Source of the DNA: Mediterraneibacter catenae
Lineage (GTDB): Bacteria > Bacillota > Clostridia > Lachnospirales > Lachnospiraceae
NCBI RefSeq assembly: GCF_008691045.1
Contig: NZ_VMSO01000004.1
Coordinates: 62,001 to 126,000 of the forward strand
Direction: 5' to 3'
DNA: 64,000 bases
In this document: in pieces, positions 41,808 to 61,782 of the stretch
Layout: the number at the start of each line of letters is the position of its first letter
How positions within the stretch are numbered: position 1 is the first letter of the stretch
Notes under the pieces: generated by a model
What the model saw: the letters and a program-made list of their open reading frames with translations, nothing else
Databases searched by the model: none
What the model was told of the DNA's origin: nothing
Program-made: the position numbers and the translations under genes

Positions 41808-43496
41808 ATGAACACTTTAGTAATCGTACTGATCGCCGCTGTATGTCTGATCGCAGCATATGCGCTGTACGGACGATGGCTGGCGAAGAAATGGGGAATC
41901 GACCCGAAAGCAAAGACACCTGCAGTTCTTCATAATGACGGGCAGGATTATGTGCCGACAGACGGATGGACAGTATTTGCCCACCAATTTTCGTCAATAG
42001 CAGGTGCAGGACCGGTTACCGGAGCAATACAGGCCGCTGCATTCGGATGGCTGCCGGTACTTCTGTGGATCATCCTCGGAGGTATCTTCTTCGGTGCTGT
42101 TACAGACTTCGGTGCACTGTACGCAAGTGTGAAGAACGACGGCAAATCCATGGGACTTCTGATAGAGAAATATATCGGAAAAGCAGGACGTAAGCTGTTC
42201 CTGGGATTCTGCTGGCTGTTCTGCTTGATCGTTATTGCTGCGTTTGCAGATATGGTGGCTGATACATTTAACGCATATGTAGTGACAGACGGCGTACAGA
42301 CACTTGCTGAAAATGCTACTGTAAACGGTGCGGCAGGAAGTATTTCCCTGTTCTTTATTCTGTTCGCGGTGGTATTCGGTGTAGTACAGCATAAAGTACA
42401 CTTTACCGGATGGAAAGAAGTGGTATTCGGACTGGTATGTACGGTACTTGCATTTGTATTTGGTATGAACTTCCCAGTGATCCTGGGAAAAGATATGTGG
42501 GTATACATTGCATTTATCTATATCTTCCTTGCAGCGGTGCTGCCGATGTGGTTTGTGATGCAGCCACGAGACTACATGTCCACATTTATGTTTGTCGGAA
42601 TGATCGCCGGTGCGGTGCTCGGCCTCCTGTTTGCGCATCCGTCAATGAACCTTCCGGCATTTACAGGATTCCAGAATGAGAGCTTGGGAACACTTTTCCC
42701 GATCCTGTTTGTAACGGTTGCCTGCGGTGCGGTATCCGGATTCCACAGTCTGGTATCCTCCGGTACTTCATCTAAGACAATTTCAAATGAGAAAGATATG
42801 CTGAAAGTCGGATATGGCGCAATGGTACTGGAAAGTCTTCTGGCTGTTATCGCTCTCTGTGTGGCAGGTGCTGCGGCAGGGGCGGACGGAACAGCGGCAG
42901 TGGGAACACCGTTCCAGATCTTCTCATCAGGAGTTGCAGGATTCCTTGAGATGTTCGGTATCCCGGTCTATGTGGCACAGAGCTTCATGACGATGTGTGT
43001 ATCCGCGCTGGCATTTACCACGCTGGATTCTGTTGCGCGTATCGGACGTATGTCCTTCCAGGAGCTGTTCAGCGTGGACGACATGGAACACGCTGAGGGA
43101 TGGAGAAAAGTCCTCTGCAATAAATATTTTGCGACGATCATCACACTGGTATTCGGCTACATACTGACACAGGTGGGATACTCTAATATCTGGCCGCTGT
43201 TCGGAAGTGCCAATCAGCTGCTGAGCGCACTTGTCCTGATCACACTGTGCGTATTCCTGAAAGTGACAGGCAGAACGCTTAAGACGCTCGTCCCGCCGTT
43301 CGTGATCATGCTGATCGTGACATTCTCAGCACTGGTGCAGAGATTTATTTCTCTTGTAAAAGCATTCTCAGCCGGAACGGGAGTGTTCATGGTTGAGGGA
43401 CTGCAGCTTATCGTAGCCGTGCTTCTTATGATCTTGGGAGTGACGATCGTGGTTACTTCCGGGAAAGAACTTATAAAGAAGAAAGCTGCAAACTAA
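41808..43496 (+). CDS. cstA: Carbon starvation protein CstA-type peptide/pyruvate transporter
   Basis: A 562-residue membrane protein with about 16 hydrophobic segments. The CstA hallmarks are present: ALYGRWLAKKWGIDPKAKTPA, NDGQDYVPTDGWTVFAHQFSSIAGAGPVTGAI and a C-terminal segment with GSANQLLSALVLITL. The family imports peptides or pyruvate. AAAGGAGAGAGG precedes the start. Its leader is a T-box, so expression should respond to an uncharged tRNA rather than to carbon starvation. It ends overlapping the convergent gene at 43493 by 4 bases. Confidence 0.92.
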   Translation: MNTLVIVLIAAVCLIAAYALYGRWLAKKWGIDPKAKTPAVLHNDGQDYVPTDGWTVFAHQFSSIAGAGPVTGAIQAAAFGWLPVLLWIILGGIFFGAVTDFGALYASVKNDGKSMGLLIEKYIGKAGRKLFLGFCWLFCLIVIAAFADMVADTFNAYVVTDGVQTLAENATVNGAAGSISLFFILFAVVFGVVQHKVHFTGWKEVVFGLVCTVLAFVFGMNFPVILGKDMWVYIAFIYIFLAAVLPMWFVMQPRDYMSTFMFVGMIAGAVLGLLFAHPSMNLPAFTGFQNESLGTLFPILFVTVACGAVSGFHSLVSSGTSSKTISNEKDMLKVGYGAMVLESLLAVIALCVAGAAAGADGTAAVGTPFQIFSSGVAGFLEMFGIPVYVAQSFMTMCVSALAFTTLDSVARIGRMSFQELFSVDDMEHAEGWRKVLCNKYFATIITLVFGYILTQVGYSNIWPLFGSANQLLSALVLITLCVFLKVTGRTLKTLVPPFVIMLIVTFSALVQRFISLVKAFSAGTGVFMVEGLQLIVAVLLMILGVTIVVTSGKELIKKKAAN

Positions 43497-44020
43497 TGCT
43501 GTTTATATCGCAGCCAGTCAGTCAAAAGCAGCGCGCCTGTAAAGACAGTGCAGAAAATCAGGGCATAACCGAGCTGGGGCATCGTCTGTGCGATCGGTGC
43601 ATTGTGTCCGAAGACTGTGAATGTCACCGCAAGAAAGATGATCAGGCTGCCGATATAGAAAAGAACCGCGCCGCGCAGGAGCAGGAGTGCTTTTGCGCGG
43701 TACATTTTTGCAATATCCACAGGGGCAAAGCGGTATTTGATGAGAACAGGCAGTACGCGGCCCTGCTCGCGGATCTGGAACAGCGCGCTGTTTAGCGGCG
43801 GCAGGGTGATCACAAAGCATAGAACAAACCACGCAAGATCAAAAGTGTAAGATTCCACTGCGGCATCGGACGTCCCGATATTCTGAAGGGCGTGGGATGC
43901 ATTGCCCGCCACAGAGGCATCCAGTGCTGTCCTCAAAAAGAGAGAAAAGAAAGCGAGAATCAGCAATACCCGGAAAGTGGTACATTTCCTGTGTTGGTTT
44001 TCATATTTGTAGTAATTCAT
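43493..44020 (-). CDS. Small membrane protein of the ABC operon
   Basis: A 175-residue protein with about four hydrophobic segments (about 17-35, 63-84, 112-140, 151-168). It is the last gene of the five-gene minus-strand operon and is likely a membrane component paired with the preceding ATPase. ATG 44020 (MNYYKYENQ) has AGGAGGTG upstream; an ATG at 44035 overlaps the previous stop. The family is not recognised with certainty. Confidence 0.7.
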   Translation of the reverse strand: MNYYKYENQHRKCTTFRVLLILAFFSLFLRTALDASVAGNASHALQNIGTSDAAVESYTFDLAWFVLCFVITLPPLNSALFQIREQGRVLPVLIKYRFAPVDIAKMYRAKALLLLRGAVLFYIGSLIIFLAVTFTVFGHNAPIAQTMPQLGYALIFCTVFTGALLLTDWLRYKQH

Positions 44021-44031
44021 GGCGCACCTCC

Positions 44032-44775
44032 TCATCTATCCTTTGATCTTGTGCCATTCGTGTGTTCCAGATCCAACAGATCCCTGATGCGCGGAGCTGC
44101 CTTGCCGGTGTATTCTTTGTATTTATCATTAAGAGATTCTCTGGGAGCACATTCGACGAGACGGCCGTTCTCCAGGATCAGCAGATAGTCCGCGAGACGA
44201 TCTACATCTTCCGTGATATGAGTGGACAGCAGAATCCCCATATCCTGATCGAGCAGTTCTCCAAGCAGAGAGAGAAACTCATGGCGGAACACCGGATCGA
44301 AACCTTCAAGCGGCTCATCAAGGATGAGAAAATCCGGATGATGTGCCAATGAGAAGCAGATCTGAAGCTTCATAAATTCCCCTTTGGAGAGTTCATAGAT
44401 CCGTTTGGACGGACTTACGTTCAGTCTGTCCAGATATGCGGAGTAATCCCGAACCGACCAGTCCGGATAGAATTCTCCATAGGTAAGGCCGTTCGATGCG
44501 ACCGACTCCTCCATAAAGAACGGACATTTTTCGCTGATATAACCGAGCTTCTGCCGATACAGGACAGGAGAAGCTTTGAATGAGATTCCGTCAATCTGTG
44601 TCTCTCCGGAAAATCCCTGAGAGACTCCGCTGATGCAGTCCAGAAGAGTTGTCTTGCCGGAACCGTTGACTCCGGCAAGGACGTAGAAGTAGCCGCTCTC
44701 CATGGAAAATGAGATGCTGTCGAGACAGAAATGACGGTATCGTTTTGTAATATTTGTGCAGGTAAACGACGACAT
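44032..44775 (-). CDS. ABC transporter ATP-binding protein
   Basis: A 247-residue ATPase. Walker A is GVNGSGKTT, Walker B LILDEPLEGFDP and the switch His STHITED. The signature region is YELSKGEFMKLQ (LSKGE in place of LSGGQ), as in the YtrB/YtrE/bacitracin-type subfamily. It lies just downstream of the GntR gene and upstream of a membrane protein, so these two may form a transporter distinct from the first ATPase/permease pair. Confidence 0.88.
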   Translation of the reverse strand: MSSFTCTNITKRYRHFCLDSISFSMESGYFYVLAGVNGSGKTTLLDCISGVSQGFSGETQIDGISFKASPVLYRQKLGYISEKCPFFMEESVASNGLTYGEFYPDWSVRDYSAYLDRLNVSPSKRIYELSKGEFMKLQICFSLAHHPDFLILDEPLEGFDPVFRHEFLSLLGELLDQDMGILLSTHITEDVDRLADYLLILENGRLVECAPRESLNDKYKEYTGKAAPRIRDLLDLEHTNGTRSKDR

Positions 44776-44777
44776 GT

Positions 44778-45158
44778 TTACTCACCTCCCTTATCCCAGA
44801 ACATACGGACCATATCAGACACTTCCTCCGGAGAGAGCCCCAGACTTTTCCCTTCCTGTATCATATCGCGGAGCCTTTTCTCGTATTCCCGAAGCCGGCT
44901 TTCCATGAGAAGACTATGATTCACTTCGCTTACGAAGAAGCCCTTTCCCTGTTCGGAATAGACCAGTCCCTGTTTTTCCAGTTCTTCATATGCCCGTTTG
45001 GTCGTGATGACGCTGATACTTAGTTCTCTTGCAAGAGAACGGATCGAGGGCAGCATGTCACCGGGACTGAGTTCGTGGTTCACTATAGAATTTTTGACCG
45101 CCAGTACGATCTGTTCATAGATCGGCCGGGGACTGTTTTCGTTAATAAAAATCTTCAC
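44778..45158 (-). CDS. GntR-family regulator, YtrA subfamily
   Basis: A 126-residue protein. The winged HTH spans about 10-78 (PIYEQIVLAVKNSIVNHELSPGDMLPSIRSLARELSIS), with only a short C-terminal dimerisation helix pair, the YtrA type. Such regulators repress their own ABC operon and respond to cell-wall-active agents. A palindrome overlaps the operon promoter at 46861-46879. It sits in the middle of the operon, not first as in Bacillus. Confidence 0.9.
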   Translation of the reverse strand: MKIFINENSPRPIYEQIVLAVKNSIVNHELSPGDMLPSIRSLARELSISVITTKRAYEELEKQGLVYSEQGKGFFVSEVNHSLLMESRLREYEKRLRDMIQEGKSLGLSPEEVSDMVRMFWDKGGE

Positions 45159-45170
45159 GTTATCTCTTCC

Positions 45171-45959
45171 TTATTCTCTGATCGGAAAATACAGTTTCTC
45201 ATAATCCAGCATGATCTCCAGTACCGGTGTCACATGCCTTCTGGTCAGCCAGATATTCAATGCCAGGGCGGGAAGCCACCACAGGGTATCGAACCAGCTG
45301 AAATTCGGTTTTACATACAGTACGGAATAGAAAATGGTATTTTCCAGTATAAGCAGTCCGCTCCAGTAAACGGATACGAATGTCTTGCTGCTACGTTCGG
45401 TTACGATATCCGGGCATTTTTTCAATGCTTCCTTGCGGTTGCCCGGATCCGGATTCAGGCTGAAGGCAAGGAACAGGAATGCCGTCAGGCTGATCTGCAC
45501 GACGAGCGCGGGAGGCTGAAGATAGAAGAAAAATCCGCCCCAACCGGTGTATGTGATTATCAGGAGAAGGAGCACCAGCAGCGTGATCTTTCCCGCAAGG
45601 TAAAGCCTCAGGTAGTGAAGTTTATCTGCCTTCCCCGCAGGACATACATACAGCGCGCCGGGCAACTGTAAAGGCAGACGCAGCGAGAAAAGCCAGATGA
45701 GCGCAAGGGTGAACAGAGCGGATATGCAGTGATATACCGTCTGGTTTTCTATAATGATCTGGAAGACAAGATCCTGGAGCAAAGACCGGTCACCGGTCCT
45801 GACTATGGATATAAAGTCCGGATAATCAAACGCAAGCCAGTATGTCACATGGTTTATGACGACTATAGAAAGTACAAGATAGCATACCATATAAAAGAGA
45901 AACAGAAGTATGTTCCGTCTGAGTGACAGCATAAGTCTGTAAAATGCAAGCTTCTTCAT
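45171..45959 (-). CDS. ABC-2-type membrane protein
   Basis: A 262-residue protein with about six hydrophobic segments (first at about 15-38), no enzyme motifs, and a basic first turn MKKLAFYRLMLSLRRN. It is the likely permease partner of the ATPase encoded just upstream, overlapping it by 4 bases. ATG 45959 has GGGAGGT 7 bases upstream; a GTG at 45968 is less likely. Confidence 0.75.
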   Translation of the reverse strand: MKKLAFYRLMLSLRRNILLFLFYMVCYLVLSIVVINHVTYWLAFDYPDFISIVRTGDRSLLQDLVFQIIIENQTVYHCISALFTLALIWLFSLRLPLQLPGALYVCPAGKADKLHYLRLYLAGKITLLVLLLLIITYTGWGGFFFYLQPPALVVQISLTAFLFLAFSLNPDPGNRKEALKKCPDIVTERSSKTFVSVYWSGLLILENTIFYSVLYVKPNFSWFDTLWWLPALALNIWLTRRHVTPVLEIMLDYEKLYFPIRE

Positions 45960-46813
45960 GAGATGCACCTCCCTTTCTGGAGATAGAAGAGCAGTTCGGC
46001 AAGGGTCGGGCGGGAAACGTCCAGTCCGGAAATGAGGGATTCATCCGGATATTCCGCCAGTGCCGTGCTGCCGTACGGTTCGTGTACCGTGGCCAGGATA
46101 TGCGGGCTGTGCAGAGCTGAGATCTCCTGTTCAGTGCCTTTGACCAGTACAAAACGTTCCTGCAGGCTTTCCATATCCATGCAGAAGCAGAACCGTCCTT
46201 CGTCGATCAGTGCGATATAGTCTCCTATCTGATCCAGATCTGACGTCAGGTGAGTGGAGAAAAGGATGCTCCGTGTGCCGTTCTCGACCAGTTCCTGCAT
46301 ATACCCGGTCAGCTCGCGGCGAAAGAGCGGATCAAGACCTGCTGCGGGTTCGTCCATAATAAACAGTTTCGCCTGATGGGACAGGGCAAAGGCAAGCTGA
46401 AAGCGGGCTTTCTGCCCTTTGGAAAGTTTCCCTGTCTTCTGCTTCGGATTCAGCCCGAAGCGGCTGCAGAATCTGAGAAAAAGCTCATGGTCATAGGCGG
46501 TGTAGGTGGCGCCGAAGAGCTTTCCGTTGGCCGCGATACTCAGCTTCTCCTCGAACAGGAATTCATCGAGGACAAAACCGATCTGATCCTTGGCCTCCCG
46601 TTCCATGGTATCCATAGGACATCCGTTTACAATGACGTTGCCGGAATCCTTACGGTACAGATTCATGATCGTGCGGATCAGAGAAGTCTTGCCGGCGCCG
46701 TTGCGCCCGATCAGTCCGAAGATGTAGCCCGGTTCAAGCGTAAAGGAAATATCCTGCAGATGCAGAGTGCCGATCTGTTTGTCGAGATGGGAGATTTCTA
46801 ATAATGGTTTCAT
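45956..46813 (-). CDS. ABC transporter ATP-binding protein (first gene of operon)
   Basis: A 285-residue ATPase. Walker A is GRNGAGKTS, the signature KLSKGQKAR, Walker B LFIMDEPAAGLDP and the switch His in FSTHLTSD. The extra C-terminal region (about 215-285) is typical of the CcmA/YtrB group. It is the first gene after the promoter, and with the next gene it would form an exporter or sensor-type transporter. Confidence 0.9.
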   Translation of the reverse strand: MKPLLEISHLDKQIGTLHLQDISFTLEPGYIFGLIGRNGAGKTSLIRTIMNLYRKDSGNVIVNGCPMDTMEREAKDQIGFVLDEFLFEEKLSIAANGKLFGATYTAYDHELFLRFCSRFGLNPKQKTGKLSKGQKARFQLAFALSHQAKLFIMDEPAAGLDPLFRRELTGYMQELVENGTRSILFSTHLTSDLDQIGDYIALIDEGRFCFCMDMESLQERFVLVKGTEQEISALHSPHILATVHEPYGSTALAEYPDESLISGLDVSRPTLAELLFYLQKGRCIS

Positions 46814-46899: not shown

Positions 46900-46997
46900 G
46901 TATTAGTGAGGAGATTTATATGCAGGCATAAATTCACCTCGTGACCTCAGATGGCTGAACTGTATTACCCCAAATGCATCCAAATTAACCATCCGCC

Positions 46998-47026
46998 TTG
47001 CAATCTGCCGCCCTCTGGTCTATACT
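46998..47026 (+). promoter_or_regulatory. Promoter for the Wadjet operon
   Basis: TTGCAA at 46998-47003 and TATACT at 47021-47026 with a 17-base spacer, 34 bases before the jetA start. This placement rules out a longer jetA reading frame starting at 46998. Confidence 0.6.
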
Positions 47027-47060
47027 ACGCTTATGGACTCAGGCTGGAGGAGCGCAGAAG

Positions 47061-48554
47061 ATGCATGTTACAGAAAAACTTACAAGACCGCTGACAGAGG
47101 CGAAGTATTTAAATGCGGATAATGCTGACCGATATCGGAGCATTATGCGCATTTTTTATGAGAATTATGAGAAGCTGCGGTACTGGATGTACCAGGAGGA
47201 AGTGTATGCCCAGATGACGGCGGATCCGTATTTCGCGGATTACCGGATGGAGCAGTGCCAGCAGGATCTCGCTATGCTGACAGAGTGGAAGAACCTGAAC
47301 ACGATCCAGGACACGCGCCGGGTGTCTTCGATCGAAGAATTTAAGAACAAGAAGTTCCGCTACCAGATGTCAGAGTACAGCGTGGAGATCGAGCGTCTGG
47401 TGATCCGGCTTGAGAATCTGTTTGTAGAAGGGGCGTCCCTGGAGCCCACGCTGCTGGAGCGGATCCGGCTGAATGTGGAGCGCTTCCCGAAGATGTCCGG
47501 GGAGGATCCGAATACGGTCTATGCGTGGTGGAATGACCTGAACAATGATTTCATCCGGTTGAATCAGAACTATCAGGACTATATCCGCGACCTGAACAGC
47601 GTGAAAGCAGAGGAAATGATGCGGACAAAGGAGTTCCTTGTATTTAAGGACAAGCTGGTGGAATATCTGCGGAACTTCATCAAGGGGCTTCAGAAAAATG
47701 TGGGCGTCATCGAGGAAACGCTGCGTCTCCTCGAGCCGGAGCTTCTTAAGCATGTGCTTGATAAGGTGAATGACTATGAGATGTCGATCCCGAGGATGGA
47801 TGTGGAAGTTTCCAGGGAAATGATCGAAGAGAAGACGACGGGGAGGTTTGAGAGCATCCGGAACTGGTTCGTGGCAGGGGAAGGGCGCGAGAATGAAGCC
47901 GGAAGGCTTTTCGACGCGACGAATGAGATCATACGCAGGATCACCCGTTACGCCGCGCAGCTCAGCGAGAAGAACGCGCTTGGGGCGAACCGGCGGGAGG
48001 AGTACAGAAAAGTGGCGGAGATCTTCCTGCGTTGTAAGGACATGGACGAGGCGCACCGGATGTCAGCCATGGTATTCGGGCTGGAACGTCCTTTCCATCT
48101 GAGCGCGGAAGCGGATCGGGAGACGGACAGCATGAATCAGAGTGTTTATGATGAGCCGGCCGCGGAGCTGACGCTCAGGCCCAGAGTCAGGACATACCGG
48201 GAGAAGACCGGGCGCACATCGATCCGGGATACGGCGCAGGAGAAGGCGCAGGCGAGAAGGCAGGCAGTGGAGCAGATGAAACAGGACTGGAAACGGATCG
48301 GCGAACTGGAGCGGGGCGGCAGGATCGACTTCTCTGATCTGCCTGTGATCGAGCCGAGAGTCAGGGGAATCCTTCTGAAATGGCTCTCTGACGCGCTGGA
48401 GGACGGGGACTATGCGGCAAGGACAGGGGACGGAAGAAACTTCGCGCTGGATATGACGCAGGCGGATGAGCGGTGCGTGGTCCGGTGTGAGGACGGAAAC
48501 TTTACGATGCCGAAGATCAGCATTGTATTTCAGGACAGGTACGGCGAATTATAG
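47061..48554 (+). CDS. jetA: Wadjet component JetA (MukF-like kleisin)
   Basis: A 497-residue helical protein, charged throughout, with no catalytic motif. The N-terminal part (HVTEKLTRPLTEAKYLNADN, MRIFYENYEKLRYWMYQEEV) reads as winged-helix/helical; coiled-coil-like stretches follow at about 150-300. It is first of four genes ending in an SMC ATPase and a TOPRIM nuclease, which fits the JetA kleisin of Wadjet. I recall this sequence type as the DUF5716 JetA family, not the DUF3375 JetA of type I; not verified. ATG 47061 has GGAGG 10 bases upstream. In Wadjet, JetA bridges JetC dimers and recruits JetB. Confidence 0.82.
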   Translation: MHVTEKLTRPLTEAKYLNADNADRYRSIMRIFYENYEKLRYWMYQEEVYAQMTADPYFADYRMEQCQQDLAMLTEWKNLNTIQDTRRVSSIEEFKNKKFRYQMSEYSVEIERLVIRLENLFVEGASLEPTLLERIRLNVERFPKMSGEDPNTVYAWWNDLNNDFIRLNQNYQDYIRDLNSVKAEEMMRTKEFLVFKDKLVEYLRNFIKGLQKNVGVIEETLRLLEPELLKHVLDKVNDYEMSIPRMDVEVSREMIEEKTTGRFESIRNWFVAGEGRENEAGRLFDATNEIIRRITRYAAQLSEKNALGANRREEYRKVAEIFLRCKDMDEAHRMSAMVFGLERPFHLSAEADRETDSMNQSVYDEPAAELTLRPRVRTYREKTGRTSIRDTAQEKAQARRQAVEQMKQDWKRIGELERGGRIDFSDLPVIEPRVRGILLKWLSDALEDGDYAARTGDGRNFALDMTQADERCVVRCEDGNFTMPKISIVFQDRYGEL

Positions 48555-48627
48555 GGAGCCGGCACATTGACGTATTTTTTGCTGTATCAGACAGATAAAA
48601 AACACTCAGAGAGGAACAGGGAGATTG

Positions 48628-49794
48628 ATGAAAGAACTGGAGATGCTTCTGAACCGGCGGTGGATCCTGAAATCTGAGGATCGGGAGCTGTACTATAAGA
48701 TCCGGGATTCCATCGGGGAGATCCGGAAGTTTGCCACAGAAAAGATGGGATGTCAGGTGATCGAGAACGCGCTGCTTGTAAAGATGGAGAAGATCCCGGC
48801 GCTGCCGGAGACATGCATGGGAATTGACGCGTTCGCCTCGAAAGAAGAGTATGCCTTCCTGTGTATCCTGCTGATGTTTCTGGAAGACCGGGACGCGCAG
48901 GAGCAGTTTATCCTGTCCCAGCTCACGGAGTATATCGCGGCGAATATGCCGGGAGAGGGCGTGGACTGGACATTGTATACAAGCAGGCGGAGGCTGGTGA
49001 AAGTGCTGCGGTATGCGGCTGACCAGGGGATCCTCCGTGTGACGGACGGAAGCGACGACGCATTTATGGATCAGGAGACCGGGGAAGTGCTGTATGAAAA
49101 TACCGGGGCGTCCAGATATTTTATGCGGAATTTCAGTCGGGATATCATGGAATACACGCGCCCGGAAGATTTTCAGGAGAGCGACTGGTTCGCCATGGAT
49201 GAGGACCGGGGGATCGCCAGGCGCCACCGTGTGTACAAACGGCTTTTGTTCTCTGTGGGCATGTACCGGGGCGAAGGGGCGGATGAGGATTTTGAGTATC
49301 TGAAATATTACGGGCGCAGGCTGGCGGACGATCTGGAGCAGAATTTTCAGTGCCAGCTTCACATTCACAGGGGGAGCGCTTTTTTCATGCAGGGAGAAGA
49401 CTGCAGGATCGGGGAGACGTTTCCGGGGAATACCGGGATGTCGGATATCCTGCTCCTGTGCTGCAGTGAGATCCGCAGAAAGGTGGAGACCGGAGAGTGG
49501 GAACCGCAGAAAGATGATATGATCCGGGTACAGATCGTGGAGTTTGAGCAGATGATCCGGAAGGTAAAAGTAGCATATGGTCACGGATTCATCAAGGGAC
49601 ACCGGGAGATGCCGGAAGGAGAGTTTGTGCGGGAAGTGGTGCGGGAGATGGAGCGGTGGACGCTGATCCGCAAGGATGTCCGGGAACAGACAGTGACCAT
49701 CTGCCCGTCGGCAGGAAAGCTGACCGGGCGCTATCCGGAGGACTTCATGAGCGGGAAGAAGAGTACAGAGAATAAAGGAGAAACAGGAAAATGA
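48628..49794 (+). CDS. jetB: Wadjet component JetB (MukE-like)
   Basis: A 388-residue mixed alpha/beta protein (MKELEMLLNRRWILKSEDRE). By position between JetA and JetC it is the MukE-like JetB subunit. The C-terminal part (FVREVVREMERWTLIRKD) may form a winged helix. It is longer than type I JetB (DUF4194, about 200 residues), suggesting another Wadjet subtype. ATG 48628 overlaps a TTG three bases earlier. It overlaps jetC by 4 bases (ATGA), so translation is coupled. Confidence 0.8.
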   Translation: MKELEMLLNRRWILKSEDRELYYKIRDSIGEIRKFATEKMGCQVIENALLVKMEKIPALPETCMGIDAFASKEEYAFLCILLMFLEDRDAQEQFILSQLTEYIAANMPGEGVDWTLYTSRRRLVKVLRYAADQGILRVTDGSDDAFMDQETGEVLYENTGASRYFMRNFSRDIMEYTRPEDFQESDWFAMDEDRGIARRHRVYKRLLFSVGMYRGEGADEDFEYLKYYGRRLADDLEQNFQCQLHIHRGSAFFMQGEDCRIGETFPGNTGMSDILLLCCSEIRRKVETGEWEPQKDDMIRVQIVEFEQMIRKVKVAYGHGFIKGHREMPEGEFVREVVREMERWTLIRKDVREQTVTICPSAGKLTGRYPEDFMSGKKSTENKGETGK

Positions 49795-52700
49795 ACAGCA
49801 GATGGCAGGCGAGCAGGATCGGTTTGATTAATTTCTGGTATTATGACGAGCAGGAATTTCCTTTTGTGAAAGGACGCATGCTCTTAAGGGGCTCCAACGG
49901 ATCGGGAAAATCTGTCACGATGCAGAGCGTCATCCCGCTTCTGCTGGACGGAAATATGAGCCCGGAGCGCCTGGACCCTTTCGGCTCGAGAGATAGGAAG
50001 ATGAGCAGTTACCTTCTGGAAGAGGACGACGGACGGGATGAGAGGACCGGGTATCTGTACCTGGAATTTAAACGCCGGGAAAGCGATACCTGGCTGACGG
50101 TCGGCATGGGGATCCGCGCCCGTCGGGGAAAGCCGCTGGATAAGTGGTATTTCAGCTTATCGGACGGCAGGAGAGTGGGAAAGGATTTCCTGCTTTACAA
50201 GGAGATCGGGGAGAAGGTGACACTCTCGAAGAAGGAACTGGAGAACCGGATCGCCGGAGGCGGACAGGTGTTTGACCGCCAGGCAGATTACATGGAATAT
50301 GTCAACCGCCAGATCTTCGGGTTTGAGACAGTGGAAGAATATAAGGAGATGATCGATCTTCTGATCCAGCTCCGCACGCCGAAGCTGTCAAAAGACTTCA
50401 AACCCTCTGTGGTCAGCGACATCCTGAGTGATTCTCTCCAGCCCCTGTCTGACGAAGATCTCAGACCAATGTCTGAGGCGATTGAAAACATGGACACCAT
50501 GAATCTGAACTTAAAGGCAAGAGAGGCGGGGCATCAGGCGGCGGAGAAGATCCAGAGAGTGCTCGACCGCTACAACCGCCTCACGCTTTTTGAGAAGGCG
50601 GACCGGTGCTGTGAGAACCAGAAGAAACTATCTGAGGCAGAGCGGGAGGCGAGGTTCCAGGCCGAAGAGACAGAACGCAGCCGGAAACGGGTCCTTGCGC
50701 TGGAGCAGGAGATATCAGAGCTGGACGCGCGCAGAGACGCCCTGGAGAAGGAGCGGGAGTCCTTAAGCAAAAGCGACGCGGTGAGCTTAAAGAGCCGTGA
50801 ACTGGATCTGGCTGCCAGGATCAGGACGAGAGAAAGCCTGCTGGAGGAAAAGCAGCGGCAGCTCGATGCAAAACAGGAACAGTATACGGAGATAGAGGGG
50901 AAAAAGAAGCAGGAAGAAGACCGGGCGTATGAAAAAGAGCGTGAGCTTGACAGTATTCTGGAGGAAATGCAGTCGGAAGCCGGAGAGATGTCCTTTGAGG
51001 AGCACGATTTCTTCCAGGATGAACTGAAAGAAAACTTTGATAAGGCATTTTCCTGGGATACCCATGAGGCGCAATTTCAGAAAGTAAAGGATGAGATCAG
51101 CCGGGGCACGGAGCTTCTCCGGGAGGCCGAAACACGCCAGAGGGAGGCGGACGACCTGCTGAAGAAGCGGGAACGGCAGCAGAGGGAGACCGACGCTGCC
51201 CAGCGGCGCGAGGGAGAACTGGAGGCGGTGCTGGTCCAGGTGGAGAACGAGTGGAAAGAGGCGCTGTACAGCTGGAACGGGCGGAATGAGGAATTGAAAT
51301 TTACTCCGGAGCAGATGCGGGAAATAGCACGGTTTGCCGACGAGTACGGGGAGTCATCAGACTTTGCCCGGGTGCGTCAGACTGCGGCGGATCTGTGGAT
51401 CGGGCGAAAAGGAGAGATCAGCGGAAAAGTCCGCCGCAGACAGGATGAACTCCGGGATCTGGAAAATGTCCGACGGGAGATCGAGGAGGAGCTTGCGCAA
51501 TGGGAGAGCACCCGCGAGCCGGAGCCGCCCCGGAGCGACACCGTGCGTAAGAACAGGGAAAGACTGCGGGAGAAAGGGATTCCCTATCAGGAGTTCTACA
51601 AGGTCGTGGAGTTCGGGCGGGAACTGTCCGGGGATCCTAAGCGGTGCGGCAGGCTGGAGGAAGCCCTCCTGGAGATGGGGATCCTGGACGCGCTTGTGAT
51701 CGAAGAGCAGTACCGGGAACAGGTGATGAAAGCCGATCCCGGCTGCGCGGACAGATATCTGTTCGTACAGCCGCACCATGCGGAGAAGAGCCTGCTGGAT
51801 GTGCTGGATCTCAATGACTCGGTAAATGATATTTTCATGAACCAGAGAATCACGGGAATCCTGGGAAATATCGGCATAAGCGGAAGTGAGGAGCCGGAGG
51901 GAGCTGCTTCCGGCGAATCTGTTCACGCCGGATCTGCCGGTATTAGCGCATCTATGACTGCAGTGCACCCGGACGGCTCCTATCAGATCGGCGTGGTCAG
52001 CGGAACCGTATCCGGGGAACATGAGGCGGGCTTCATCGGCGTGCAGGCAAGGGAGAAGAACCGGCAGGCGAAGATCGCGTCCTGCCGGGAACTGCTGGCG
52101 GAGAATGAGCAGAGGCAGGAGGTCCTGCGCGGTGAAGTGGCCGTACTCGAACAGCGCATCAGCCGGCTGCAGGAAGAATACGAAAGTCTTCCGGAAGACA
52201 CAGACATGCGAGAGGCGTGGAAGATGCTGAGCGAAGCCAGGCGGACGGTGGAGCGTATGCGGGAAGAAGGAGCGAGGCTGGAGCGGGAACTGATGGAAGT
52301 CGGCGAGGCGCTGGGAGAGCTTAAGCGTCAGGCGGCGGAGATCGCCCGGAAACTATACCTGACCTGCAGCTATGAGACCTTCCGAAGAGCAGACGAGGCG
52401 GCGTCAGATTACAGACAGCATTTCTATCAGCTCAGATCCGGTCACGAGCTCTTTCTGCAGATCCGGTCTCACATGGAAGAACTGGGAGAGCGGCAGGAGA
52501 TCCTCGATGGTGAGATGGATCAGATCCGATATGAGGCGGGCGGCGTGAAGAAAGAGCTTAAGAAGGAGCAGGAGGAATACGATTCCATCCTGCGTCAGCT
52601 CGAGCTGACAGACTATGAGCAGATCCGGCAGAAGCTGGATGAATGCATGGAGTGGCTGAAAGACTATCCGGAACGTCTCCAGTCCTGCGTGGCGGAAAAG

Positions 52701-53963
52701 ACTCTGAACGAAGAGCGCATCCGGGCGCTTTCAGAGCAGGCCGCGCAGAATGAAGAACGGATCAGTGAGCTGCGGCGCAGGGCGGAGTACCTTGAAACAT
52801 GCTTTGCGGCAGAGCGAAGCCTGCACTATGTGGAACTGCCGGGAGAGGAAGCTGAGGCAGCGGAATCGGCGGAGAAGATCCGCAGTCTCCTTGCCGGCGA
52901 GTGCAGGGATATGGATAAGGAGCAGATCATCCGCAGCCTGAACCAGGTTTACTTTGAGAACAGAGGATTCCTGACGGATTATCAGATCATGCAGACAGAG
53001 CTTTTTGAAGAGCTGGACCGGGAAGCCCAGAAAGGCGATCCGTCAGCAAAGCGTCTGGATATTGCGGCGCGCTATCAGGGCGTGCGGATTCCTTTCGGGC
53101 GTCTTCTTACGCATCTGGCGGAAGAGATCGCGGAACTGAAGGATCTGATCAAAGCCGGAGACAGGGAGCTCTTTGAGGATATTCTTGCGAATACGGTGAG
53201 CCGGAAGATCCGTGGAAAGATCAACAGCTCGAATGCCTGGGTGGAGAAGATGAATTCCCTGATGGGAGCCATGAATACGTCCAGCGGGCTGAAGCTGAAT
53301 TTAAGATGGCGCAGCCGCACGGCGGAGACTGAGGATCAGCTTGATACGAAAGAACTGGTCGAGCTGCTGAAAAAGGACTACCGCCTTATGCGGGAGGACG
53401 AGGCGGCGAAGCTCTCTGCCCATTTCCGTTCAAAGGTGGAAGAGGCCAGACGCCATGCACGTGACAGCGGCGGCATGATCTCTTTCTATCAGGTTATGAA
53501 GGAGACTCTGGATTATCGGAAATGGTTTGAGTTCCAGCTTTTCTTCCAGAAGGGCGGGGAAAGAGTGAAGGAGCTGACGAACAGTGTATTCGGAACATTC
53601 AGCGGAGGAGAGAAAGCGATGGCAATGTATGTGCCCCTTTTCTCGGCGGTGGTGGCAAAATATCAGGGCGGACGTCCGGACGCGCCGCGGCTGATCTCCC
53701 TGGACGAAGCTTTTGCGGGCGTTGACAACCGGAACATCCGGGATATGTTCCGTCTGATGGCTGAATTTGAGTTTGATTTTATCATCAATTCGCAGGTGCT
53801 CTGGGGCGACTGCGATACGCTGGATGCCCTGGCGATCTATCAGCTCCTGCGCCCGGAGAATGCGAAATTCGTGACCGTCATGCCCTATCTGTGGAACGGC
53901 CATGCGCGGGTCATGCTGGAGGATGAGTCTGAGATGGAGAAACGGGCGGCACAGGAGGCTTAG
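49791..53963 (+). CDS. jetC: Wadjet component JetC (SMC-like ATPase)
   Basis: A 1390-residue MukB/SMC-like motor. Walker A GSNGSGKS is at residues 34-41. Long coiled-coil arms (roughly 260-430 and 800-1060) surround a central region; HPDGSYQIGVVSGTVSGEH with FIGVQAREKNRQ near residues 724-755 resembles the TIGR02680 group. At the C-terminus are the signature FSGGEKAMAMY (Ser1271) and Walker B LISLDEAFAGVD (1301-1312). In Wadjet it extrudes plasmid DNA loops until stalled, licensing JetD cleavage. All ATPase motifs are intact. Confidence 0.92.
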   Translation: MNSRWQASRIGLINFWYYDEQEFPFVKGRMLLRGSNGSGKSVTMQSVIPLLLDGNMSPERLDPFGSRDRKMSSYLLEEDDGRDERTGYLYLEFKRRESDTWLTVGMGIRARRGKPLDKWYFSLSDGRRVGKDFLLYKEIGEKVTLSKKELENRIAGGGQVFDRQADYMEYVNRQIFGFETVEEYKEMIDLLIQLRTPKLSKDFKPSVVSDILSDSLQPLSDEDLRPMSEAIENMDTMNLNLKAREAGHQAAEKIQRVLDRYNRLTLFEKADRCCENQKKLSEAEREARFQAEETERSRKRVLALEQEISELDARRDALEKERESLSKSDAVSLKSRELDLAARIRTRESLLEEKQRQLDAKQEQYTEIEGKKKQEEDRAYEKERELDSILEEMQSEAGEMSFEEHDFFQDELKENFDKAFSWDTHEAQFQKVKDEISRGTELLREAETRQREADDLLKKRERQQRETDAAQRREGELEAVLVQVENEWKEALYSWNGRNEELKFTPEQMREIARFADEYGESSDFARVRQTAADLWIGRKGEISGKVRRRQDELRDLENVRREIEEELAQWESTREPEPPRSDTVRKNRERLREKGIPYQEFYKVVEFGRELSGDPKRCGRLEEALLEMGILDALVIEEQYREQVMKADPGCADRYLFVQPHHAEKSLLDVLDLNDSVNDIFMNQRITGILGNIGISGSEEPEGAASGESVHAGSAGISASMTAVHPDGSYQIGVVSGTVSGEHEAGFIGVQAREKNRQAKIASCRELLAENEQRQEVLRGEVAVLEQRISRLQEEYESLPEDTDMREAWKMLSEARRTVERMREEGARLERELMEVGEALGELKRQAAEIARKLYLTCSYETFRRADEAASDYRQHFYQLRSGHELFLQIRSHMEELGERQEILDGEMDQIRYEAGGVKKELKKEQEEYDSILRQLELTDYEQIRQKLDECMEWLKDYPERLQSCVAEKTLNEERIRALSEQAAQNEERISELRRRAEYLETCFAAERSLHYVELPGEEAEAAESAEKIRSLLAGECRDMDKEQIIRSLNQVYFENRGFLTDYQIMQTELFEELDREAQKGDPSAKRLDIAARYQGVRIPFGRLLTHLAEEIAELKDLIKAGDRELFEDILANTVSRKIRGKINSSNAWVEKMNSLMGAMNTSSGLKLNLRWRSRTAETEDQLDTKELVELLKKDYRLMREDEAAKLSAHFRSKVEEARRHARDSGGMISFYQVMKETLDYRKWFEFQLFFQKGGERVKELTNSVFGTFSGGEKAMAMYVPLFSAVVAKYQGGRPDAPRLISLDEAFAGVDNRNIRDMFRLMAEFEFDFIINSQVLWGDCDTLDALAIYQLLRPENAKFVTVMPYLWNGHARVMLEDESEMEKRAAQEA

Positions 53964-53972
53964 GAATTGCTT

Positions 53973-55493
53973 ATGGGTGAAAGACTTGCAGAGGATGGCG
54001 TTGTGAATGGAAGACCTGCGGGGGCAAGTCCTGAAGATGAGAAGCTGCAGGCTGAGTGTCTGCGGTACTTTCGGGAGCGGCCGGTTTTGGGGAAGCTTCT
54101 GCGCGGATTCCGGGAGAAATATCTCTCTTACGGCAGGTTCGCGGGGACAGTGACATTGAAGAACCTTAAAGAATCCGAGCGGGAAGATCTGGAAGGCTTC
54201 CTTCTGCGGAACTATCACGGAAAGAAGTCGGCGTCCGTTTCCGCGGAGCGCTTCGAGAAGGCGCTGTCCGGGAGCCGTTTCGCGGGAATAAGCGGGAAGG
54301 ATGTGCTGGAACTGTACTTTCGGGAGCCTGTGGAGGGAAGAAAAGAACAGAGGCAGCGTGGGGACAGACGGTGGACGGCGATTCTTGACGGGGCAAAAAA
54401 AGAGGCGGGGGCACTGTCTGCGCGGTGGATCGATGAGATCAGTGAGATGCAGAGCAGCGGATTCATGCCATATCTGAAAAGGCGTGACCGGGAAGCAGGC
54501 GGAAATCTGGACGAGGCGGAGCGTCTGCTGATGCTGGGTGTACAGATTTTGGACGCTCTCCCGGTGAGAAAAGTGTCGGAAACGATCGATGACTGTGCGG
54601 CCGGTGACCGGGCAGGCGGCATTGAAGAAAGGGGGAAGAAAGCGCCGGATCTGTCCGGAATGCCTGCCCGGTATCTTGCTGTGTTCGCGGCGGAGATCAC
54701 GGGAAATCCCCATGCCTTCGACGCGGGCACAAAGGACGGAAAATATCTGGAAATGCTGGTGGAATGGTATGTGCGGCGGACAGAGGCGGAAGCGGGCGCA
54801 AACGGAGAGCACGGCGGGAAAAACAGTTTGGACAGAGCTTTCCCTGCGTTCAGGAAACAGAAGCTGTTTCTGAAAGCGGGAATTTTGAGTGATGATGTAT
54901 CAAACTATGCTCTGGCGGCGGGGATCCGTGCCTGCGACAGAAGGGGAAAGCCCCATGCGGGAATGGAAGGATTTCTTGAAGAGGGAGAGCCTGTACAGAT
55001 CCCGTTATCTGTGATCGCGGGATGGAAGTCTGCCTCCTGTCCGGGAAAACGGATGTATATTGTGGAAAACCCGTCCGTTTATGCGGTCCTTTGTGGAAAA
55101 TGGGATCGGAAATGTGGTCTGATGTGTATGAACGGACAGCCCAGGTTCAGCTCCCTGCTGCTTCTTGACCTGCTGGCACAGTCCGGGATAGAAGTATGGT
55201 ACGGCGGCGATATCGATCCGGAGGGGCTTCTGATCGCGCAGAGGCTGAAACAGTACTACCAGGGCGAATTCCACTGCTGGCATATGTCGGCGGATGACTA
55301 TGAGATGTCCATGTCAGCAGAAGAAATCTCGCAGAGGAGACAGAAGATGCTGGAGAAGGTGGAGGATCCGGAACTGAAGGAGACGGCGGAAGCCCTGCAG
55401 AAGAGCGGAAAAGCCGGGTATCAGGAGAATATGCTGCAGGTGTATCTGGAGATATTCCGGAGGGATGAAGACAGAAAGGGAGAAGAGAGTTAA
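53973..55493 (+). CDS. jetD: Wadjet component JetD (TOPRIM nuclease)
   Basis: A 506-residue protein. The C-terminal TOPRIM-type domain has the acidic triad region: Glu365 in [13 protein letters not shown], and Asp413/Asp415 in [14 protein letters not shown]. This matches the DUF2220/DUF2399 JetD nuclease that cuts plasmids stalled by JetABC. A conserved-looking GNPHAFD is at about 244-250. ATG 53973 has AGGA upstream; a TTG at 53967 with AGGAGG 8 bases away is also possible. Only 9 bases separate it from jetC. All catalytic acids are present. Confidence 0.88.
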
Positions 55494-55494
55494 T

Positions 55495-56589
55495 ATGGCA
55501 AATAAAAGGTTAAAAAAGACAATACTGCAGGTAGTCAATAATCAGTTGAAAGATCCTGCGACAGCTTATGTAAAAGAGGCATATGATAAAATGAGAAATA
55601 TGGGATATACATCCGCTGAGGCAAAGGAAGCTATAGCGGCAGTCCTTCTTAGTGAAATGTATACCATGCTTGGTGAAATGAAAGAATTCAGTGAAGAAAG
55701 CTATCGGAACGGGCTTGAAGAGATGCTGGAGGATTACGGTCTTGGCGGACAGGAAGAACCCTGGCCGGGAATGAGTGAGATGCTGAAACAGGGATATGAC
55801 GCACTGGAAAGAGATTTCAGAGATCCTTCCTCGATAGAACCATGGGAGAAGGCATGGGAGATCGTAAAAGAAAAGGTGAAAAATGCTGAAATGCCTCTGG
55901 AGATTTATGAGGCGGACGAGGCGACAGATTACGAGTATAATCTGGAAGAGTGGATTTCAGAAATGACGGATTCTTATCGTAGGATGGGAGAGGATGACAG
56001 ATGTATCAGTTTCTGCAAAGAAGTGATTGATACATTTACATGGCAGCAGTTCCCGCCGTCCGAGTTTAAAAATTGTATCGGAAATTGTCTTATGAGGCTT
56101 GGGAGAATTGAAGAGAGTGATGCATGGTATGAGGCATGGCTGGATGAAGGCCGGGAGCCGGATGCGGTCACCGCGTGCACGGGCTACTGGATGGCAAGAA
56201 GAGAATACAGGAGAGCTGAGGAACTTCTGGACCATATTCTGAAAGTGTGCGAAGGCGGAAATGATTATGACGGATTTTATGATATCGGAGCAGAATATTG
56301 CAGACAGATCGGTCAGGAGAATAAGGCCAGAGAATTTGACAGGATTCAGGAAGAATATGAAGAGCGCATGAAAGAGTATGAAACGGAGTATGAGGACTGG
56401 GAAATGCCGTTTTTCGGTGAAGGATCAGAACAGGATCCATGGAGTATGAAAGGCGGACTGGGGGATATGGATGCCAAAAGACAGCAAAGACAGGAGCCAG
56501 TTGTAAAACCGAAGAAAGTATACCCGAATGATCCGTGCCCCTGTGGGAGCGGGAAGAAATATAAAAAATGCTGCGGCAGAAAAGAGTAA
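55495..56589 (+). CDS. TPR-like protein with C-terminal SEC-C motif, coupled to jetD
   Basis: A 364-residue acidic protein. The N-terminus ([20 protein letters not shown]) leads a helical domain to about 80 resembling DUF1841-like folds. TPR-like helical pairs follow (about 140-290: [40 protein letters not shown]). The last residues form a SEC-C zinc motif, [16 protein letters not shown]. The start codon lies one base beyond the jetD stop, indicating coupling with the Wadjet operon. Function is unknown; SEC-C motifs often mediate protein or nucleic-acid contacts. Confidence 0.8.
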
Positions 56590-56594
56590 GGCGT

Positions 56595-57566
56595 ATGAAA
56601 GTTCAGGAATTAAGACAGATGCTCGGCAGTGCGGAGCGCAGCCGGGTTGAAAAAGCGTTTGTCGAGAGTTATAAACAGCTTAAAAAATATCAAAAAGAAG
56701 AGGCAGATATCCTGATCAGGGATATTTTATCCGGACAGAGCGAAAAATCAGGAGTGAAAAAGGAAAAGCAGAGTTTTGCGGAACTGGAAGCGCAGATAGA
56801 AACATTTCTTGAAAATGCAAAAGCGGGAAACTATTATGCGCCGAATCGTGTGATCCCCAAAAGCCAGCGCCCAAAGTGGCGGTTCTTGGTGAAAGGATAT
56901 ATTAAAGAGCTGGAAAAAATCGTTCCGGACAGCGAACATTATGAAAGGACATCGGTACTTCTGCGTGAGATTTATGCATTGTTGTGCGAGGCGTGCAATT
57001 ATTATCTGTTTTCAACGGAGGATGCTTTTCGATCAGTAGGCTGGCGGCAGGATGAACTGTTTCATCTGCTGGTGTCGAAGACATTTGGAAGCGGATTCAG
57101 CAAAGATAATGTTACGGAGATGACCGTTATGGCATGTACGGGCGGGCTGAGCAGAGAATCTCTTTATTATGAACAGCAGGCAGTGCTTCTTTCTGAACTG
57201 AAGACAAGCGATGTAAAGCATATGGCGATGGAAACAGCAAAGAAAGAGATCCGGGAACGGAAGGAGAAACTGCATGGACTGGGAAAGTATGATCAACAGA
57301 GATATTATCTGGAAGAAGAAATCAATAATTTTTGCGACCTGTTTCTTATGCTTTCACTCTCACTGGCAGAGGCAGAGTCAGGAGTAAAATATTATTTTAA
57401 GAATAGTATAAAGCGGGATAAAGAGACTATTTTATACTGCGCGCTTCGGGTGGCGGATATTATTGATGATGATGAGATGTGGAAGGAAATTTATAAATAC
57501 GGTCTTTCTCAGAAGATCAAACCAAGAGATGAGCTGACGAGGGAATATCGTGAAAAGACCAGATAA
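56595..57566 (+). CDS. 323-residue helical protein of unknown family
   Basis: A soluble, mostly helical and basic protein (MKVQELRQMLGSAERSRVEK at the start). Other notable stretches are FLENAKAGNYYAPNRVIPK, FRSVGWRQDELFHLLV and YDQQRYYLEEEINNFCDLFL. I do not recognise the family and see no catalytic motif. It starts 5 bases after the SEC-C gene stop, so it is part of the same transcript as the Wadjet genes unless an internal terminator exists; none is visible. ATG 56595 fits AAGG upstream; a longer start at 56568 overlaps the SEC-C gene. Confidence 0.7.
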   Translation: MKVQELRQMLGSAERSRVEKAFVESYKQLKKYQKEEADILIRDILSGQSEKSGVKKEKQSFAELEAQIETFLENAKAGNYYAPNRVIPKSQRPKWRFLVKGYIKELEKIVPDSEHYERTSVLLREIYALLCEACNYYLFSTEDAFRSVGWRQDELFHLLVSKTFGSGFSKDNVTEMTVMACTGGLSRESLYYEQQAVLLSELKTSDVKHMAMETAKKEIRERKEKLHGLGKYDQQRYYLEEEINNFCDLFLMLSLSLAEAESGVKYYFKNSIKRDKETILYCALRVADIIDDDEMWKEIYKYGLSQKIKPRDELTREYREKTR

Positions 57567-58454: not shown

Positions 58455-58649
58455 ATGAGGAAGAAGAGCAAAGAGAGGACAAGCTGCGAGACTTGTGCAT
58501 TCTACGTCTATGACGATGAATACGGGGCGTATCTGTGCGACATGAACATGGACGAGGACGACTATGTGAGGATCATGTCGGACAGATATTATCAGTGCCC
58601 GTATTATCGGAATGGGGACGAGTATGCTGTGGTCAGAAAGCAGATGTAG
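58455..58649 (+). CDS. Small four-cysteine protein (DUF6472-like)
   Basis: A 64-residue protein with Cys at CETCAFYVYDDEYGAYLCDM and YYQCPYY, a likely zinc-binding arrangement, and an acidic middle. I recall similar short proteins in Lachnospiraceae annotated as DUF6472. ATG 58455 has AGAGGATAAG upstream. It overlaps nothing and precedes the TPR gene by 31 bases. Function unknown. Confidence 0.7.
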   Translation: MRKKSKERTSCETCAFYVYDDEYGAYLCDMNMDEDDYVRIMSDRYYQCPYYRNGDEYAVVRKQM

Positions 58650-58680
58650 TATAAGGGCGATCGAGTTGGAGGATACCATT

Positions 58681-59588
58681 ATGGATTTCAAGTTATTTAT
58701 GAATTCAGTTGAAGAAAATCTCTCTCTAATTAAAACCGAAGAGGAACTCAGGAACTGGATCAGAAACTATGCCCGCAGCATTCCGGAAGAAGAACGCGGA
58801 AGTTTTCTGGAACAGATACAGATCAGAAAATCGCGCAGTCACAAAGAAATACTGCAGGAGCTTACAGACTGGTGTGCAAAGATCGAAGAGGGCGAAATTA
58901 CGCTTTCCTGCAGCGGCTATGAAGAATATGGAGAAAGCTGGTGGGACCGCGACTGGGTAACGGAATATGAAGACCCGATGGGAATCGGGGCACAGTTAAA
59001 ATGCTATTATGAAGAAGCGGAGCAGGCTGTCTATGACAGAGATTATGAATCTGCGGGCCAGATGTATTGGAGTCTTGGAGTACTGAACATTACAGCCGAC
59101 GATGTATATGGCGGCGAACCGGCAGAATTGGGGAATCTGTCTGCCGGAAGCTGCTGGGGATGTTTGCATGGGAAGAGGAATCCCCTTCGGATATCCGTTT
59201 CCTGCTGGCGTCTGCCCTGGAGGGGCAGGGGAAAACGCAGGAGTCGCTGAATTTATGCAGAGAATGGACAGCGAAAGAACCGGATAATCCGTATGCCGTT
59301 GCCGCGCTCGTCTATGCAAAGATGAATGCAAATGATCTGGAAGGCGCGGAAGAAATCGTGAAACAGCATATATCGGATAGTGCTGTGTGTGATGAAGATA
59401 ATGATGTGATCTTTGCGGCGGCTGTACGGCTGTATCAGAAAAACGGAAATAAAGAGATGGAAAAGAAGATGGATAATGCGCGGGAAGAATATGACAAAAA
59501 ACTGGGGGCATACCTGATGGGCCTGGGGGACGAATTTGAATTTGGGGATGAAGAGGAGTTTGTGGATGATGAATTACCGTTTAACTGA
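58681..59588 (+). pseudogene. TPR-like protein with a frameshift at a G tract
   Basis: From ATG 58681 (GGAGGAT upstream) the protein reads MDFKLFMNSVEENLSLIKTE to DDVYGGEPAELGN, then goes into a basic nonsense tail ending at 59250. A second frame continues from the same point as ESVCRKLLGMFAWEEESPSD and a TPR-like stretch to MGLGDEFEFGDEEEFVDDEL at 59588. Adding one G to GGGG at 59130-59133 joins them into about 302 residues. It may be a real mutation, a phase-variable tract or a sequence error. It overlaps the HAD gene start. Confidence 0.7.
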
Positions 59589-60861: not shown

Positions 60862-61782
60862 ATGGTTAAATCATACAGCCAGAAATTAAGAGTGTTATAT
60901 GTGATGCAGATCCTGCTTCGGTATTCGGACGAAGAACATCCGATCTCTCAGGCGGAAATATCGGAGCGGCTGAACGCTTACGGCATACAGGCGGACCGTA
61001 AAAGCATTTACGATGATATTAAGGTCTTAAATGAGTTTGGTATGGAGATAGAAAACCGCAGAGCTAAGCCGTCGGGATTCTATGTGTCGGAGAGAAGCTT
61101 TGAACTGCCGGAGCTGAAGCTGCTGGTCGATGCGGTTCAGTCATCGAAATTTATTACAGCGAAGAAGTCAAATGAGCTGATCCGAAAGCTGGAAGAGCTG
61201 GCAAGCGTACATGAGGCAAAGACGCTCCAGAGACAGGTGTTCGTCGGAAACCGCATTAAGACGATGAACGAAAGCATCTATTATAATGTGGACAAGATAC
61301 ACCAGGCGATCTCTCAGAACCGGCTGATTCGTTTTCGCTACTATGAGTGGACGCCGCAGAAAGAAATGCATCTGCGAAGGAACGGGAAGGCCTATGAAAT
61401 CAGCCCGTGGGGACTGACCTGGGACGATGAAAATTATTATATGGTCGGTTATGACGGCGAGGCGGAAATGATCAAACATTTCCGGGTGGATAAGATGCTG
61501 GGTATAGAAATAACGGATCAGTCCCGAAGCGGAAAAGAACACTTCGAAAAATTTGATCTTGCAAATTATGCTATGATTGACCGCTTTGGGAGAGATGTCA
61601 TGGTGCATTCTGTTGATGAGGAACATTTTTCCGTGAGTGCGGCGGTCAATGTAAGCCCACAGTTCTTCGGCTGGCTTGTGGCGCTTGGGAAGGGCGTTGT
61701 GATAGAGGGGCCGGAGGATGTGAGAGAGGAGTTCGGGGGATGGATGAGAGCGGTGATGAGGGAGTATGAAAATGAAGGATGA
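60862..61782 (+). CDS. WYL-domain transcriptional regulator
   Basis: A 306-residue DNA-binding protein. The N-terminal winged helix (about 10-75, VLYVMQILLRYSDEEHPISQ, IQADRKSIYDDIKVLNEFG) is DeoR/HTH_11-like. A WYL ligand domain follows at about 150-225, with RLIRFRYYEWTPQ, AYEISPWGLTWDDENYYMVGYD and HFRVDKM, and a WCX-type C-terminus. WYL proteins often control defence genes through nucleic-acid ligands. GGAG precedes the start. Three short repeats follow its stop. Confidence 0.92.
   Translation: MVKSYSQKLRVLYVMQILLRYSDEEHPISQAEISERLNAYGIQADRKSIYDDIKVLNEFGMEIENRRAKPSGFYVSERSFELPELKLLVDAVQSSKFITAKKSNELIRKLEELASVHEAKTLQRQVFVGNRIKTMNESIYYNVDKIHQAISQNRLIRFRYYEWTPQKEMHLRRNGKAYEISPWGLTWDDENYYMVGYDGEAEMIKHFRVDKMLGIEITDQSRSGKEHFEKFDLANYAMIDRFGRDVMVHSVDEEHFSVSAAVNVSPQFFGWLVALGKGVVIEGPEDVREEFGGWMRAVMREYENEG

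Follow-up and report, generated by a model that had tools for sequence, protein, structure and literature searches.

The window, a 64,000-nt stretch of Mediterraneibacter catenae DNA, contains four successive open reading frames on the forward strand in the order jetA-jetB-jetC-jetD, and all four frames are open (Table 1). ORF calling placed them where a preliminary description had reported four consecutive genes that overlap or nearly touch. We observed that jetB and jetC share an overlap of 4 nt, and that the stop of jetC lies about 3-9 nt ahead of jetD, depending on which jetD start is used. The exact start of jetD is uncertain, with TTG 53967 and ATG 53973 as the two candidates. A gap of 73 nt separates jetA from jetB. 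The gene content, the motifs and the promoter described below were read directly at this locus.

Table 1. Features of the jet locus and of the two genes that follow it (window coordinates).
Feature	Position	Strand	Basis or remark
Predicted sigma-70-type promoter of the jet operon, TTGCAA-17-TATACT	46998..47026	+	Scan and conservation in relatives
Shine-Dalgarno sequence GGAGGAG of jetA	47046..47052	+	Read from the sequence; mostly kept in relatives
jetA, kleisin, type II, DUF2397/TIGR02677, 497 aa	47061..48554	+	PADLOC, Pfam, NCBIfam and PDB matches
jetB, KITE-type subunit, DUF2398/TIGR02678, 388 aa	48628..49794 (alternative start 48625)	+	PADLOC, Pfam, NCBIfam, PDB
jetC, SMC ATPase, TIGR02680, 1390 aa	49791..53963	+	PADLOC, NCBIfam, PDB, motifs
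jetD, nuclease with C-terminal TOPRIM, DUF3323-DUF2399, about 506 aa	53973..55493	+	PADLOC, Pfam, acidic residues
Gene for SEC-C motif protein	55465-56589		Overlaps jetD
Gene for 332 aa protein, no Pfam match	56568-57566		Overlaps the SEC-C gene

We searched the four proteins against PADLOC, Pfam and NCBIfam models. The best PADLOC model was of type II in every case, with matches covering nearly the full length of each protein: JetA2 (E=2e-207), JetB2 (E=2e-145), JetC2 (E=0, residues 1-1381) and JetD2 (E=4e-120). Pfam assigned JetA to PF09660 (DUF2397), JetB to PF09661 (DUF2398) and JetD to PF11796 (DUF3323) and PF09664 (DUF2399); JetC matched SbcC_Walker_B. Three proteins scored above the NCBIfam cut-offs, namely JetA (TIGR02677, 346.9 bits; cut-off 165.85), JetB (TIGR02678, 174.4 bits; cut-off 124.65) and JetC (TIGR02680, 824.9 bits; cut-off 462.85). 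JetD reached 189 bits against TIGR02679, 7 below the cut-off of 196. The preliminary description had proposed PADLOC and TIGR02677-02680 as checks on a complete Wadjet gene set: four of four proteins matched the former, all as type II, and three of the four latter families were recovered outright, with TIGR02679 falling just short. Four genes in one operon in the order A-B-C-D, as in type II, were also found.

Neither JetA1 nor JetB1 was among the PADLOC matches, and JetC1 and JetD1 matched far more weakly than their type II counterparts, in agreement with the earlier statement that the system is not type I. Type I Wadjet (E. coli GF4-3 ecJET, P. aeruginosa PA14 JetABCD and C. glutamicum MksBEFG) follows a like subunit logic of SMC, kleisin, KITE and TOPRIM nuclease (PMC10586767), but its JetA and JetB belong to different families. 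The earlier suggestion that a DUF5716-type JetA points to type III, which its author marked as unverified, was not borne out. A JetA that is not DUF3375 and a long JetB would both fit some type other than I. However, the four best PADLOC models are of type II, JetA and JetB belong to DUF2397 and DUF2398, and no type III model was found among the PADLOC, Pfam and NCBIfam matches of the four proteins, which leaves a type III Wadjet with a next to negligible probability.

Solved structures agreed with the family models. JetA, JetB and JetC matched PDB 9qe0 (JetABC complex 9qe0/9qe1) with E=7e-82, 5e-68 and 2e-209, respectively. This entry is listed in the PDB table by its chains only, and we take it to be the Neobacillus vireti type II complex. 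Because the best family models are all of type II and JetABC matches a solved JetABC, we assign the cluster to type II and not to type III. JetA, JetB and JetC are homologous to those of N. vireti JetABCD, a system of the same type, over nearly their whole length; the differences are limited to sequence divergence and to extra low-complexity stretches in JetD of the window. A solved type II Wadjet structure from N. vireti (Structure 2025) is cited in PMC12647877, and the N. vireti complex cuts circular DNA in vitro (PMC12647877).

We then considered the catalytic residues. The three ATPase motifs of JetC are intact (Walker A GSNGSGKS at residues 34-41, signature FSGGEK at 1270, Walker B LISLDEA at 1301), as the preliminary description had read them. 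It had also credited JetD with the acidic residues of a TOPRIM nuclease, and E365, D413 and D415 (EN...GDxDPEG motif; numbering from ATG 53973) were invariant in all 26 JetD proteins of an alignment from Lachnospiraceae. These homologues reached the Pfam families JetD_C (21/26), Toprim (4/26) and TOP6A-Spo11_Toprim (1/26). Two low-complexity stretches of JetD, at about residues 197-232 and 268-292, are lineage-specific, being absent or shorter in distant homologues. An AlphaFold model of JetD, built from an alignment of 8 rows (the window and 7 close homologues), had a pLDDT of 60.5. Because confidence was low in the C-terminal TOPRIM half of this model, our assignment of a TOPRIM fold draws on sequence families. 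A PDB sequence search with JetD or its profile gave no meaningful match to any solved structure.

Upstream of jetA, a promoter scan returned the TTGCAA-17-TATACT site with 9 of 12 matches, which is weak alone; by scan alone, such promoter-like sites occurred at chance level (15 found, 11.3 expected). We aligned the region of about 200 nt surrounding the jetA start in the window and 11 Lachnospiraceae relatives. All 12 sequences had an identical TATACT, the −35 box varied in the more distant ones, and no common pattern was seen further upstream. Because the site can still be aligned in the relatives while the sequence farther upstream diverges, it is very probably the promoter of the jet operon. 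The conservation thus strengthens the earlier claim that the cluster has its own promoter. The start of the cluster, which had been placed at 46998, needs correction: the TTG at that position belongs to the −35 box of this promoter, and jetA starts at the conserved ATG 47061, with GGAGGAG in front of it.

Taken together, these data make us highly confident that the cluster encodes a type II Wadjet (JetABCD) anti-plasmid system that is complete, probably functional and under one promoter just upstream of jetA. We also considered that this Wadjet might be decayed or silent. Further downstream, a deletion at about 59133 has truncated a gene, a sign that the region is prone to decay, but four open frames, intact catalytic motifs and a conserved promoter make decay of the jet genes themselves very improbable. 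The locus is an ordinary, intact type II Wadjet of a kind already known. Nothing in it is new in kind, and it raises no new question about Wadjet.

By analogy with characterised Wadjet systems (PMC10586767, PMC12647877, PMC12287153), the locus likely carries out DNA extrusion, cleavage and plasmid exclusion. JetC (SMC), JetA (kleisin) and JetB (KITE) would assemble into a dimeric motor for loop extrusion, which loads on DNA and draws it in. If the DNA is a small closed circle, the supply would run out, upon which the TOPRIM nuclease JetD would be activated and would cut the circle without sequence specificity. The chromosome would escape cutting by being too large, and linear DNA by having free ends. 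The locus adds one more well-preserved type II Wadjet from a gut member of the Lachnospiraceae, and the predicted system probably reduces uptake of small plasmids by the strain. Because deletion of jetABCD in Clostridium cellulovorans raised conjugation about 10^5-fold (PMC12287153), a knock-out might make genetic work in this group easier.

JetC was found above the family cut-off in 24 of 299 family genomes and in 12 of 58 congeners. The order jetA-B-C-D recurs in almost all relatives with a complete JetD, and the flanks vary. No JetD relative was detected in viral contigs at the search sensitivity used. The contigs with the nearest relatives belong to Mediterraneibacter glycyrrhizinilyticus and other Mediterraneibacter. 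JetABCD of M. glycyrrhizinilyticus An427 (L126/L093) is 98% (JetC), 95% (JetD) and 94% (JetA) identical to that of the window, and the two loci share operon order, promoter and the genes that follow; unlike the window, An427 has different genes upstream of jetA and lacks a deletion matching window 59133. In one locus (L101, G321:C1), the jet strand yielded no full-length jetB frame between jetA and the jetC start; jetB may be damaged there, or the assembly or the simple ORF caller may be at fault.

DNA homology to three genomes (G309, G335 and G312) starts abruptly at window 46950-46954, and their genes upstream of jetA differ from those of the window. Homology to G312 (L094/L133) breaks off at 55469, shortly ahead of the JetD stop, and picks up again at 58624. 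Judged by these edges, jetABCD and its promoter behave as a portable unit (about 46950-55470). Two related species (G306/L108 and G352/L111) carry stretches that flank the jet genes in the window, with the jet genes absent. On the reverse strand upstream of jetA (43493-46813), the window encodes a GntR regulator and two ABC transporter ATPase genes with membrane-protein-like partners. G307 (L100) shares this group, but no such group was seen next to the jet genes of G309 or G335.

With the two genes that follow jetD, the locus could be a Wadjet variant of six genes, the SEC-C protein and the 332 aa protein serving as accessory subunits of JetABCD. We searched the 299 family genomes and the 58 congeners for both proteins and compared neighbourhoods. 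The coding sequences of jetD, the SEC-C protein and the 332 aa protein overlap and are probably co-transcribed, the order is identical in the two closest species (L092 and L093), and a different SEC-C motif protein comes after another Wadjet (L089). However, only the window and these two closest relatives have the two genes after JetD, both are absent from most other Wadjet loci, and another gene stands directly after JetD in L094, L102 and L103. Of the 58 congeners, 6 carry an orthologue of the 332 aa gene, counting the window's own genome, and in three of them (L107, L108 and L111) no jet genes adjoin it. Close homologues of the SEC-C protein have unrelated neighbours (L104-L106), and the SEC-C motif itself is present in nearly all genomes searched. 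The chance that the two proteins are accessory subunits is therefore slim. It is equally doubtful that, within this Mediterraneibacter sub-lineage, a co-transcribed SEC-C zinc-motif protein, perhaps with the next protein, extends the type II Wadjet by modulating JetABCD. With linkage confined to the closest species, we rejected both proteins as parts of the four-gene type II Wadjet and treated them as neighbours.

Further downstream, the window lacks about 1.56 kb at 59132/59133 compared to M. glycyrrhizinilyticus An427 (L126: 15162 to 16726), with the affected region at 58612-59588. The deletion truncates a gene for a 574-588 aa product and fuses it to the remainder of the next gene, whose 238 aa product is a distant relative of the SEC-C protein. 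A profile search of the window's own genome with PF04465 (DUF499) gave no match. Window 60862-61782 encodes a WYL-domain regulator-like protein (PF13280, E=2e-12) with a sub-threshold FokI_D3 match.
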